Shown: one piece after another, positions 22,707-62,483 of the stretch
How positions within the stretch are numbered: position 1 is the stretch's first letter
How the letters are laid out: every line of letters starts with the position of its first letter
DNA from: Winogradskyella wandonensis
GTDB lineage: Bacteria > Bacteroidota > Bacteroidia > Flavobacteriales > Flavobacteriaceae
Reading direction: 5' to 3'
Assembly (NCBI RefSeq): GCF_004346845.1
Contig: NZ_SMGI01000002.1
Coordinates: forward strand, 682,001-746,000
Length of the DNA stretch: 64,000 bases
Notes under the pieces: generated by a model
The model's database searches: none
Seen by the model: only the letters and a program-made list of their open reading frames with translations
Told to the model about the DNA's origin: nothing
Translations under genes and position numbers: made by a program

Positions 22707-24401
22707 CTATAATTGATTAAATATTTGTTGTAAAATTTTATTTGTTATCACATATGTTGGTCTTACTCCTGTTGAGCCGAGCCCTCCAGATGCTAATGTG
22801 CTTCCTGTTTCTAATGGGTTGTCACTAGCGTAATACGCATATCTCACTTTTACATCCTCGTTTATATTGCCTCTTACTCTTGAGGCCGCTTGTATGGCTT
22901 TTTGGTAATGCGCGCCTTCCATTTCTAGTCCTATAACATTCCATGTAGACTTTTTAAAGAACTTTAATATCTCTTTGTTTTGTAATGATGTGCCTAGTAC
23001 AGTTATCATTGAACCTTCATAAACGTCAACTCCGCAATCTACCATATCTTGTTTACATAACTCATTCTTAAACGGATAATTGTCTGCTGTACCTTCAAAA
23101 ATATGTGCCGAAGGAATCATAACATCACCTTTACCGCCTTGAAGTATACCCGCCTTACCCATTATTGAGATAGACTTAACATCTAAATGTACTTTATCTC
23201 CATTAAAGGATACGGGTTTCAGCAACTCGTCCATAGTTTCATAGGCTTGCTCTCCAAAAGCATAGTCCATAACTATGATTACCGCTTTGTTCTCTACAGT
23301 TGTTTCCTCGTATTTAAAACTTGTTTTAGAAAAATCTAAATTGTTCGTATCAAAAATCTGAACATCTATATTTGTCCCTGATGTGTCTTTGATATTGGTC
23401 ATTCCGTTTTTAAGAGCCAACGCTTCCACCTTGCTTCGCATTGTGCTATTCTGTGGTTGACTTAACGCCTGGTAAAGCTCGTAAATTTCTCGCTTTTCTT
23501 TGGAAGATTTTAAGGCAGAACTTGCGAATAAAGAATTCATCACACTATGCATATTTGCGCTAATAATATGAATAGGTCTTCGCAGTAATCCTTTCTCATT
23601 TAAAACAGATTTAATAGTATTTGCCCATATTTCACCATGAATATGATGCCCCAATCGTTCCCGTAATACGGGACTAAAGGTTACCGTGCGTTTTTTGCTA
23701 TTGACAATTTCCTCTATGGCTAATTTACCCAGCCAAAACACGATATTAAGAAACCGTTCTGGTTGACTTTCAGTGGCAAAATCCGAATATACCTGAGAAA
23801 TCTCACTAAATGTTCTTCCTAAAATATGTGCTGTATGGGTAATTGCAATTTCACGCTCTTTCTGAGTGAGTTTTTTATTTTTATTTACAGCATCTTCTAA
23901 TTTGTTCCAATCTCTAATGGTGCCTCCGTTATCATCGATTAGAACACGTTTACTTATTTTATGCGATTCTACAAATAAAAAGGTAAGGTGTGTTAGAATA
24001 TCGTAAATCTCGGAACGACCGCGTGTAATTTCTATATTCATCTGCTCCGCATCGATACGGTAGCAATTACGTCTTCGTTTTGGCGGAATTATAACTTTAA
24101 AATGTGAGTCTCCATAGCCCTCATCACTTGTTAAATTAATATACGTGCACTCCTCTATGCCATTGGGTAACCGGTCAATTACATACAATAGTCCTTCTAA
24201 CTCTGCTTTTTCGTCTGCAATAGACCCATAGATCTCTGGTCTAAGAAGTAACAAAGCCTCTCTTAGTGTTTCTCCAGAAACACCCATTGGCTTATAAAAA
24301 CCACGATTAAATAAGTGTCGCATGGTAATATACATGCGCTCTATAGCGTTAGAACTTTCTTGGGCTCGGGTTCTTTTATGTGTCTTTATTGGGGTTTTCA
24401 T
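22707..24401 (-). CDS. Conserved flavobacterial protein with a nucleoside-phosphorylase-like C-terminal domain
   Basis: This 564-residue cytoplasmic protein has no assigned role that I can recognise; it probably belongs to a Bacteroidota family of unknown function (possibly DUF6909, from memory). The first 350 residues are alpha-helical, with conserved-looking patches such as LGHHIHGEIWANTIKS near 250. The last 190 residues carry a set of motifs like those of the purine nucleoside phosphorylase/AMP nucleosidase fold: IMGKAGIL (413-420), GDVMIPSA (425-432), GLEMEGA (491-497, compare the EME motif that binds the ribose) and YYASDNP (523-529, compare the SD pair that contacts the base). It lies three bases ahead of the chain-length gene but may have an unrelated role. 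The fold is inferred, not proven. Confidence 0.7.
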   Translation of the reverse strand: MKTPIKTHKRTRAQESSNAIERMYITMRHLFNRGFYKPMGVSGETLREALLLLRPEIYGSIADEKAELEGLLYVIDRLPNGIEECTYINLTSDEGYGDSHFKVIIPPKRRRNCYRIDAEQMNIEITRGRSEIYDILTHLTFLFVESHKISKRVLIDDNGGTIRDWNKLEDAVNKNKKLTQKEREIAITHTAHILGRTFSEISQVYSDFATESQPERFLNIVFWLGKLAIEEIVNSKKRTVTFSPVLRERLGHHIHGEIWANTIKSVLNEKGLLRRPIHIISANMHSVMNSLFASSALKSSKEKREIYELYQALSQPQNSTMRSKVEALALKNGMTNIKDTSGTNIDVQIFDTNNLDFSKTSFKYEETTVENKAVIIVMDYAFGEQAYETMDELLKPVSFNGDKVHLDVKSISIMGKAGILQGGKGDVMIPSAHIFEGTADNYPFKNELCKQDMVDCGVDVYEGSMITVLGTSLQNKEILKFFKKSTWNVIGLEMEGAHYQKAIQAASRVRGNINEDVKVRYAYYASDNPLETGSTLASGGLGSTGVRPTYVITNKILQQIFNQL

Positions 24402-24426: not shown

Positions 24427-25929
24427 CTATTTCACTAATCTCATTTGATAAAGTTTATCGGCAATTTTTCGGTCGTTGGCTAATCTTGGTATTTTATTTT
24501 GTCCTCCTAATTTACCAATAGATTTCATATAATCCTTAAAACCTTCTTTTTTTACTAAAGTGATTTTTAAAGGCATTAGAACTTTTCCTGTGATTAAATC
24601 TTTGTAATAACTATTCTGCTCTTGCAGCGATTGGTCTATTGTTTCTGCAAAAGTGTTTAAGTTTTCTGGCGCGTTTGCAAACTCTACAAACCACTCGTGA
24701 TAAGGCAAACCTTGTTCTGGATTAATTTGTGGCGCTACAGTAAATTCGTTAATAGAAGCATTTGTTTCTTTTAAAGCGTCGTTAATGGCTTGTTCTACTT
24801 CTTTTCCTATGACATGTTCTCCAAAAGCCGAGATAAAATGCTTTATGCGACCAGAAACAATAACACGGAAAGGCGCTGTACTTTTAAATTGAACGGTGTC
24901 TCCAATATTATAAGCCCATAAACCAGCATTGGTAGATATAATCATTACATAGTTAACACCAATTTTAACGTCTTTTAAGGTGATTCGCTTTGGAGATTCA
25001 TCGAAAAAGTGTTCGGCTTCAATAAATTCATAAAATATACCCGAATTAAGTTGAAGCAACATTCCTTTTTCATCTTGCTTATCTTGAAATGCAAAAAAGC
25101 CTTCGCTCGCAGGATAAAGCTCAATACTGTCTACTTTACGACCTATTAAATTTTCGAACTTCGCGCGATAAGGTTCATAATTTACGCCGCCGAAAATAAA
25201 AAGATTAAAATTTTTGAAGATATCCCCGACCTTTTTATCCGTTTTTTCGATGAGCTTCTCGAAATACATCTGAACCCAAGAAGGTATGCCAGATATTATG
25301 GTCATATTTTCTGGAAGGGTCTCTTCTACTATGGCATCGACCTTGGTTTCCCAATCCTCGATGCAGTTTGTTTCCCAACTAGGTAATCGGTTTTTTTGAA
25401 GGTATTTAGGCACATAATGTGCCACAATACCAGATAGACGTCCTAATTGAATACCATTTTGTTCTTTTAATATTGGACTTCCTTGAAGAAATATCATCTT
25501 ACCATCTACAAAACTAGATTTACCAGTCTCGTTGATGTACATTAAAATAGCGTTTCTTGCCGCCTCGACATGGCTAGGCATACTCTCTTTGGTAATTGGT
25601 ATGTATTTAGCACCAGATGTTGTTCCCGAGGTTTTTGCAAAATATAAGGGCTTTCCTTTCCAAAGTATATTTTCTTCTCCATCCACAATGCGCTCTACAT
25701 AATGCTTTAGAGCTTCGTAATCTCTCACGGGAACGCGTTTTACAAAATCGTCATGGTTATTAATACTTACAAAGTCGTGGTCTTTACCAAATACTGTTGA
25801 GGCAGCTTCAGAAATTAGTTTTTGAAACACCTTTTCCTGAGTTTCAAGAGGATTAGAAGACCACCTTTTTATTCTTTTTGCGACAATTTTTGCAAAAGGC
25901 TTTGTTAACAATGCTTTTATAGATGTCAT
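24427..25929 (-). CDS. GH3 auxin-responsive-promoter family adenylating protein
   Basis: It is a 500-residue member of the GH3 family, which in plants joins acyl acids to amino acids by way of an acyl-adenylate. Visible ATP-binding signatures are FAKTSGTTSGAKYIPITKES near residue 102, LYPASEGFFAFQD near 266, and the Y-N-I-G-D site in STNAGLWAYNIGDTVQF near 337. These residues are intact, so an active enzyme is expected; substrates of the bacterial members are not known to me. It shares one base with the start of the M23 peptidase gene's stop codon, so the two are probably one transcript. Confidence 0.88.
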   Translation of the reverse strand: MTSIKALLTKPFAKIVAKRIKRWSSNPLETQEKVFQKLISEAASTVFGKDHDFVSINNHDDFVKRVPVRDYEALKHYVERIVDGEENILWKGKPLYFAKTSGTTSGAKYIPITKESMPSHVEAARNAILMYINETGKSSFVDGKMIFLQGSPILKEQNGIQLGRLSGIVAHYVPKYLQKNRLPSWETNCIEDWETKVDAIVEETLPENMTIISGIPSWVQMYFEKLIEKTDKKVGDIFKNFNLFIFGGVNYEPYRAKFENLIGRKVDSIELYPASEGFFAFQDKQDEKGMLLQLNSGIFYEFIEAEHFFDESPKRITLKDVKIGVNYVMIISTNAGLWAYNIGDTVQFKSTAPFRVIVSGRIKHFISAFGEHVIGKEVEQAINDALKETNASINEFTVAPQINPEQGLPYHEWFVEFANAPENLNTFAETIDQSLQEQNSYYKDLITGKVLMPLKITLVKKEGFKDYMKSIGKLGGQNKIPRLANDRKIADKLYQMRLVK

Positions 25930-27172: not shown

Positions 27173-28144
27173 TTACTTAAGCTTTATTGACTTTATTATA
27201 GATTCTAGCTCGAAAACATATTCGCGTTTATCTAGTGATGGTGCGTAAACATAACCTTCTGCAACCAAATATCTATTATTTACTTTGTCTTCTATTGCAT
27301 AGTTAATAAAAGGCCCTGCCATATAAGCGCCCTCTATTTCCCAAACGCCTCTTGTTTCATAGGCTGGTTTGTTATCTATTATAGCATTAAAAAGTGAAGG
27401 CACATAGGCGTCTTCTGTTTGCATAATTATACCGTCTTCTCCTGGTATTTTAGTTGCTGTTATTTTGTCTCGCATTTTTATAATATCTACAATCGTGCTA
27501 TCGCCTTGTCTAATAGAATCTAGCGGATAGCTGTAAAACATTAAATCCATAGTTTTATTATTGCTCAACGCTTTACGCACCCAATAAAAATCATCTTCGG
27601 CTTTACCTATTTTATACGCTGATGGAATATCGATGGTAAAACCTAAAGCATTCTCCATGTCTTCATCTTTAAGTAAGGATTTATTAATCCGTCTTAATTT
27701 TTCTGCCACTTCTTGTTTTGTAAACGCATCAATAATTTTTAACTCGTTTTCTTTAATTAAATCTATAATTTCTTGATTTGTTTTGCCTTTTACTGTCACC
27801 ACAGTTTGGGGTTTGGCGTATACATCTTTATTAATGACAACAGCGGTTGTATCTGTCTTTTCAACTTTTAAAATAATCCTGCTTTTTGTGGCAAATCCAT
27901 TAAATACTGGTGTTGGGATTTGTTTTAGAGAAAACATTGGTTCGTCCTGAGGTAATCCTTTTGCTGGTGCGGCTAATGTTTTACGTATAGCTTCACCCAC
28001 TTTGCCTTCCCAAAGCACATTATCTGCAACAACAGAGATAGAGTTTATGTTTCCTGAAGATGCCGTGAGGTAACGTACGTTATCGTTTTTATCATCACAA
28101 CTAAGTACTAAAAGCAGACAGAATAAATAGATAATATGCTTCAT
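27173..28144 (-). CDS. DUF4837 family lipoprotein
   Basis: It is a 323-residue predicted lipoprotein. The signal peptide ends in LVLSC (cleavage before Cys16), followed by DDKND, so an outer-membrane location is likely. The mature part contains the segment SSGNINSISVVADNVLWEG and a later IDIPSAYKIGKAEDDFYWVR, which I recognise as typical of the DUF4837 family of Bacteroidota. The function is unknown. It lies 23 bases after the lytic transglycosylase gene and is probably co-transcribed with it, suggesting a cell-envelope role. Confidence 0.85.
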   Translation of the reverse strand: MKHIIYLFCLLLVLSCDDKNDNVRYLTASSGNINSISVVADNVLWEGKVGEAIRKTLAAPAKGLPQDEPMFSLKQIPTPVFNGFATKSRIILKVEKTDTTAVVINKDVYAKPQTVVTVKGKTNQEIIDLIKENELKIIDAFTKQEVAEKLRRINKSLLKDEDMENALGFTIDIPSAYKIGKAEDDFYWVRKALSNNKTMDLMFYSYPLDSIRQGDSTIVDIIKMRDKITATKIPGEDGIIMQTEDAYVPSLFNAIIDNKPAYETRGVWEIEGAYMAGPFINYAIEDKVNNRYLVAEGYVYAPSLDKREYVFELESIIKSIKLK

Positions 28145-62108: not shown

Positions 62109-62483
62109 TTAATTTTTATCGAGCTTTAAAAACTTTTCAAAAAGTAGCTTCATTTTCTCATCTACCAATTGAAATGTAGGTTTTTCTTTTCCAATGTACA
62201 AAATCATAAACAGGTAAGATGTTTCACTTTTGTTAAAGTATATGGGCTTGTTCAAGCGATAAGCCTCACGTAACAAACGCTTTATTTTGTTGCGGTTTAC
62301 AGCCTTTTTATGTAGTTTTTTACTAACAGAAACTCCGGTTTTTAATATAGAACCATCATTAAAATCAGCCTTTAGGTATATAAGCCGAAGCGGAAAAACA
62401 GTCACAGCCTTTCCTTCGGCGAACAATTGTTCTATTAATTTTTTACGTTTTAGTTTATCTTTTTTTGAGTATCCAAAGACCAT
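62109..62483 (-). CDS. rnpA: Ribonuclease P protein component
   Basis: It is the basic protein subunit of RNase P, which cuts the 5' leader from pre-tRNAs. The 124-residue protein has the RNR motif in the segment NRNKIKRLLREAYRL, the preceding TGVSVSKKLHKKAV, and a central strand. The gene is followed by the DUF4349 and S41 genes, a set I recognise from flavobacteria, not by rpmH or yidC. A good promoter lies 20 bases upstream. Confidence 0.95.
   Translation of the reverse strand: MVFGYSKKDKLKRKKLIEQLFAEGKAVTVFPLRLIYLKADFNDGSILKTGVSVSKKLHKKAVNRNKIKRLLREAYRLNKPIYFNKSETSYLFMILYIGKEKPTFQLVDEKMKLLFEKFLKLDKN

Follow-up and report, generated by a model that had tools for sequence, protein, structure and literature searches.

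The window, by which we mean the whole 64,000-nucleotide stretch of the Winogradskyella wandonensis genome analysed here, holds a minus-strand gene for a 564-residue protein, and the question that this locus raises is what the protein does. The original prediction called it uncharacterised, with a nucleoside phosphorylase-like domain at its C-terminus and a two-domain plan like that of AMP nucleosidase, and left its substrate open. We found the reading frame to be genuine and its strand and length to be as described, but the protein belongs to a family that already has a name: it matches PF21850 (DUF6909) with an E value of 3.8e-64 and a score of 217.4 bits against a curated cut-off of 27. DUF6909 is a Pfam family without an assigned function, and a literature search on 'DUF6909' and 'PF21850' found no paper.

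Full-length DUF6909 open frames are found in all 25 genomes of the window's genus that were searched, its own genome included. Outside the genus, the family was detected in 5 of 15 genomes belonging to other families of the same order, and a sample of 296 Bacteroidota genomes contained it in 43. On plasmids it was found in two records, both from Persicobacter, and tblastn confirmed no viral relatives. Searches of PDB sequences with the window's protein or the family profile gave chance-level matches only. The Pfam match and the conservation of the open frame throughout the genus, taken with the modelled fold described below, amount to more than chance. The features of the locus are collected in Table 1.

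Table 1. Features of the DUF6909 locus in window coordinates
Feature	Position	Strand	Basis
GH3-family adenylating enzyme, upstream neighbour	24427..25929	-	PF03321
DUF6909 (PF21850) gene, 564 aa	22707..24401, stop codon included	-	ORF and Pfam match
N-terminal alpha/beta domain, residues ~1-253, many invariant Arg/His, no known relative found	23643..24401	-	AlphaFold2, Foldseek, VIA, alignment
H252-H253, possible counterpart of H188-Y189 of Amn	23643..23648	-	Register by eye
Predicted C-terminal PNP-fold domain, residues ~254-564	22710..23642	-	AlphaFold2 model, Foldseek, VIA-align 2
Residues 281-289, end of first core strand; N283 is the proposed N205 counterpart	23535..23561	-	Register by secondary structure and eye
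GKAG...GD...EGT motif block, residues 415-443	23073..23159	-	hhalign pairing with GKCG...GD...EGT of AMN-like
EMEG, residues 493-496; M494-E495 correspond to M404-E405 of Amn	22914..22925	-	125/125 rows; hhalign
SDNPL, residues 526-530; D527 corresponds to D428 of Amn	22812..22826	-	SDNP[LM] in 124/125 rows; hhalign

Predicted fold and conserved residues

In an AlphaFold2 model built on 81 aligned sequences (mean pLDDT 80.9, pTM 0.65), residues ~254-564 adopt a predicted fold that places them in the PNP superfamily. The top Foldseek match is an AMP nucleosidase chain, 2guw_B (E 2.0e-7), with MTAN and PNP chains nearly tied (E 3.8e-7 and 7.7e-7) and 248 matches in all at E ≤ 0.001. As the 2guw_B alignment spans 515 columns with an rmsd of 20.7, this match does not demonstrate an alike arrangement of both domains. 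VIA-align 2, run with the whole model, gave a DeoD-type phosphorylase at Z 18.3 (rmsd 2.8 over 213 residues) and Z values of 17-18 for the other rows shown; Amn chains are absent from these 50 rows, in a list that excludes nothing. The nucleosidase-type domain that the original prediction had placed at residues ~370-564 is borne out in its modelled fold but not in its boundary, which lies about 100 residues earlier, near residue 254.

The first 350 residues had been described as all-helical. The model instead has strands at residues 87-91, 113-115, 120-124 and 239-242, giving the N-terminal domain an alpha/beta character. Modelled alone, this domain is poorly predicted (pLDDT 68.9, with residues 1-62 below 50), and Foldseek returned no match for it at E ≤ 0.001. 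With VIA its best Z is 3.6, and uridine phosphorylases and 1ybf are among the rows at Z 3.0-3.6; such values are common by chance, and the idea of a degenerate second PNP half was not built on. A likeness to the N-terminal domain of Amn, the AMP nucleosidase of Proteobacteria, was noticed by eye and dropped when its hhalign score was matched by 22 of 100 shuffles. Against AMN-like proteins, the putative AMP nucleosidases of Bacteroidota (TIGR01721), the domain showed no relation beyond shuffles (14 of 100 as high), and PF10423, the family of the Amn N-terminal domain, is not matched by the window's protein at E ≤ 1.

Conservation was assessed in 125 non-identical DUF6909 rows from 138 loci and the window, with loci L196-L207 outside the alignment. 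The GKAG (415-418), GD-V-x-I (425-429), EMEG (493-496) and SD (526-527) motifs lie where the original prediction located them. G415, K416, E493, M494, E495, G496, S526 and D527 are kept in every row and D426 in 124, so that EME and SD, with the E493, E495 and D527 singled out for checking, are never lost. N283, H285 and H253 are likewise invariant, and H252 is kept in 121 rows. The SDNP[LM] motif that follows the last core strand occurs in 124 rows, the exception being SDCPL. Its more general form, SD.P[LM], is present in all 13 AMN-like rows; of the AMN or AMN-like ORFs that were fetched, 23 of 24 have it, and of 31 other PNP-superfamily ORFs none. Comparison of DUF6909 with AMN-like by hhalign pairs GKAG-GD-EGT with GKCG-GD-EGT and EME...SDNP with DME...SDNP.

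In Klebsiella Amn, residues N205, W383, M404, E405 and D428 contact the base and sugar, and the phosphate residues are R381 and K436, with H188/Y189 contributed by the other chain (PMC9584410). Aligned with these, N283, M494, E495 and D527 of DUF6909 are putative counterparts of N205, M404, E405 and D428. The register of the Met, Glu and Asp comes from hhalign, and that of N283 from the secondary structure (a modelled strand at 277-282, then a helix at 286-296) and inspection by eye. Counterparts of R381, W383 and K436 were not seen in DUF6909 sequences, whereas AMN-like keeps them in 13 of 13 rows: the DUF6909 stretch aligned with the R381/W383 region reads VLGTSLQN, and the loop after SDNPL holds no conserved Lys. 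At the place of Amn H188 the AMN-like rows have Arg, not His (13 of 13).

Assignment to a PNP subfamily is less clear. The hhalign probabilities are 1-5% (4.8% for a mixed PNP alignment), and the profile-profile scores were reached by 2 of 100 shuffles against Amn and 5 of 100 against AMN-like, so sequence alone is only suggestive and, as judged from these profiles, the similarity of DUF6909 to AMP nucleosidases is of the twilight zone. Among HMMs scored on DUF6909 proteins, AMN-like has the best median, at 0.3 bits, but in top score PNPH is level with it (8.0 vs 7.7); HMMs with Amn rows included did no better than 0.5. Weak matches to PF01048 (PNP_UDP_1) at E ≤ 1 were obtained for 62 of 81 relatives, the best of them at E 0.0045, and the window's protein scores 13.1 bits against a curated cut-off of 25.1. 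TIGR01721, with a curated cut-off of 307.2 bits, gives no match to it at E ≤ 1, and PF10423, the domain by which Amn membership was judged, is likewise unmatched at that level. Because these tested features are missing, DUF6909 should be classed neither under TIGR01721 nor under PF01048 or Amn. Up to this point the sequence observations of the original prediction are partly confirmed.

Complementary occurrence of DUF6909 and AMN-like genes

The same genomes were searched for DUF6909 and TIGR01721, with AMN-like genes counted at E ≤ 1e-20. This threshold sets aside the weaker AMN-like matches, which make up 10 of 130 in the phylum sample, 3 of 193 in the class sample and 3 of 10 in Flavobacteriales; that of the window's genome is its DeoD gene. 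For the order of G102 only matches within the threshold were listed. No genome was found to contain both genes. The phylum sample (296 genomes) has DUF6909 in 43 and AMN-like in 120, the class sample (277) in 19 and 190, and the sample from the order of G102 (198) in 26 and 150, where 19.7 genomes with both would be expected under independence. Among Flavobacteriales genomes DUF6909 was found in 12 of 32 and AMN-like in 7 of 31, again never together. With overlaps between samples checked, there are 79 different DUF6909 genomes, and none of them has an AMN-like gene. One-sided Fisher tests give 1e-19 (order), 6e-11 (class) and 2e-11 (phylum), values that are not probabilities of independent events since the genomes are related and the samples overlap. 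PF10423 was found in none of 198 Bacteroidota genomes.

Both genes are absent from a large number of genomes (133 of 296, 68 of 277 and 22 of 198), from which it follows that the function is dispensable. Eight near-complete Flavobacteriales genomes of 1.6-2.0 Mb (G031, G034, G038, G576, G578, G581, G586 and G588) lack both, and the function seems dispensable in small genomes. As a separate observation, the AMN-like matches of families f35, f37, f56 and f64 in the phylum sample (E ~1e-41 to 1e-47) lie in frames of ~390-480 aa, against the usual ~260, and perhaps represent another AMN subfamily with an extra domain.

Five families (f19, f22, f65, f109 and f136) contain both types, split by genus, and these nested cases carry more weight. 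In f19, DUF6909 occurs in 22 genomes of 14 genera and AMN-like in 15 genomes of 10 genera, with no genus shared. In f109, both DUF6909 carriers lack AMN-like and G500, of another genus, has it, as one would expect if DUF6909 made AMN-like dispensable. The tree computed from 29 DUF6909 proteins places the two f109 sequences in a set of 11 with Flavobacteriaceae (support 100/99), and this placement points to transfer of DUF6909 from Flavobacteriaceae into f109. Support for f109 lying inside rather than beside Flavobacteriaceae is weaker (84/89), and 5% of bootstrap trees recover Flavobacteriaceae as a single group. Replacement of an AMN-like gene by DUF6909 at the same locus was not seen in f19, f22, f65 or f109, the families compared.

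A proposed nucleosidase and its alternatives

DUF6909 was found only in genomes without AMN-like and has a predicted nucleosidase fold, which makes it probably a stand-in AMP nucleosidase that does the job of the usual AMP-splitting enzyme. With moderate confidence, we propose that DUF6909 is a divergent PNP-superfamily nucleosidase that displaced AMN-like and most likely hydrolyses AMP. AMP is our choice of substrate because of the mutual exclusion with AMN-like. Counting against the proposal are the missing counterparts of R381, W383 and K436, the twilight-zone profile scores, the near tie of MTAN and PNP chains with Amn in Foldseek, the relatedness of the genomes sampled and the many genomes that carry neither gene. 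The interpretation offered by the original prediction is to this extent partly supported: the PNP fold stands in the model, and the likeness to AMP nucleosidase comes mainly from that exclusion. Neither of the outcomes that the original prediction named as refuting it, a C-terminal model of another fold or loss of EME and SD in orthologues, was observed.

In the proposed mechanism, DUF6909 would have displaced AMN-like in Flavobacteriaceae and several other Bacteroidota lineages and would hydrolyse, rather than phosphorolyse, AMP to adenine and ribose 5-phosphate. The purine would be held by N283 and D527 and the ribose by M494-E495, and another phosphate pocket would replace the Arg and Lys of Amn, with the Gly/Ser-rich loop 533-542, K416 and H252-H253 as candidates. 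The N-terminal domain may regulate the enzyme or its assembly. A more specific version, in which DUF6909 forms a separate AMP nucleosidase class with a Gly/Ser-loop phosphate pocket, a new N-domain control and several displacements, at least one of them after transfer, we put forward only tentatively.

The missing counterparts of R381, W383 and K436 would suit an enzyme of this fold that is active as a nucleosidase or phosphorylase but acts on a compound other than AMP (IMP, GMP, NMN, adenosine, methylthioadenosine or the like) and overlaps part of the AMN-like role, and the modelled fold, to which chains of DeoD, uridine phosphorylase and MTAN come equally near, together with HMM scores that do not settle the subfamily, can be read in the same way. 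We regard this as rather unlikely given that the exclusion concerns AMN-like in particular, the sole PNP subfamily compared, that SDxP[LM] is absent from all the other PNP-superfamily ORFs examined, and that the window's genome already encodes three further members of the superfamily, namely PNPH, DeoD and a uridine-phosphorylase-like protein. Catalysis itself might be absent, with DUF6909 sensing a nucleotide through a PNP-like pocket and the exclusion being a by-product of lineage history. The large and strongly conserved N-terminal domain without a known fold, the divergent pocket and the relatedness of the genomes, which keeps the instances of exclusion from being independent of one another, would fit such a sensor; the invariance of the catalytic-type E495 and D527 in all 125 rows and the recurrence of the exclusion within five families make it very unlikely.

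The least probable of the alternatives is that DUF6909 serves its GH3 neighbour, for example by removing AMP released in N-acyl amino acid or aminolipid synthesis. The GH3 gene is directly upstream in all 80 loci of close relatives, and its best NCBIfam match is the lyso-ornithine lipid synthetase OlsH, at 401.8 bits and below the cut-off of 620, making it a candidate for the synthesis of N-acyl amino acids or aminolipids. OlsH, a GH3-like enzyme of a planctomycete, synthesises lyso-ornithine lipid, and AMP is released by GH3 enzymes (PMC12493201), so a local GH3-DUF6909 link is possible in Flavobacteriales. Of 20 more distant DUF6909 loci, however, 6 have a GH3 homologue in the ~10 kb fetched and the other 14 have none in that span, with varying neighbours and the same residues invariant. 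The GH3 neighbour is probably not part of the DUF6909 core function, and it is unlikely that the conserved function depends on it.

Several further observations concern the surroundings of the gene. An M23 peptidase gene precedes GH3 in 79 of the 80 close loci, and in the remaining one, L038, the contig ends there. A DUF4837 gene (27173-28144, minus strand; PF16125, E 4.3e-94), from a family of unknown function, has homologues near GH3 and DUF6909 in 69 of the 80, some contigs ending earlier. Near a contig end, L020 has homologues of GH3, DUF6909, Wzz-like and epimerase genes followed by the mirror order on the other strand, which is either a genuine inverted repeat or an error of assembly. 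At L138, a locus of G067 in the same family, the place before DUF6909 is taken not by GH3 but by genes homologous to those near 62109 and 59626 in the window.

Were DUF6909 indeed the AMP-hydrolysing replacement that we favour, the lack of an AMN-like gene in the 79 DUF6909 genomes would be explained, and a distantly related protein of the same fold would have displaced a purine enzyme, bringing with it a new accessory domain for study. The proposal also assigns a role that can be tested to a family so far without one, which is present in every searched genome of the window's genus and in 43 of the 296 sampled from Bacteroidota.

Relation to known enzymes of the PNP fold

With DeoD-type PNP, uridine phosphorylase and MTAN (PF01048), DUF6909 shares the modelled fold and the positions of the M-E and S-D pairs; it falls below the PF01048 cut-off, and SDxP[LM] is absent from the 31 ORFs of this kind examined. 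With Amn of Proteobacteria (E. coli, Salmonella, Klebsiella), the source of its first Foldseek match, it has in common the division into two domains, the predicted C-terminal PNP fold and the putative base and sugar residues. The two differ in their phosphate residues and in their N-terminal domains, between which no relation beyond shuffles was detected and of which only that of Amn belongs to PF10423.

For the AMN-like proteins, a structure titled AMP nucleosidase of Bacteroides thetaiotaomicron is available (1ybf), which we take to be a member of TIGR01721; among the titles and abstracts surveyed, none was seen to address the activity of an AMP nucleosidase from Bacteroidota. Compared with them, DUF6909 has an additional N-terminal domain of ~250 residues, is without counterparts of R381, W383 and K436 and is not matched by TIGR01721. 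What the two share is the PNP fold, in DUF6909 a predicted one, the GKxG-GD-EGT block, [DE]ME and SDxP[LM], and their occurrence across Bacteroidota is complementary.
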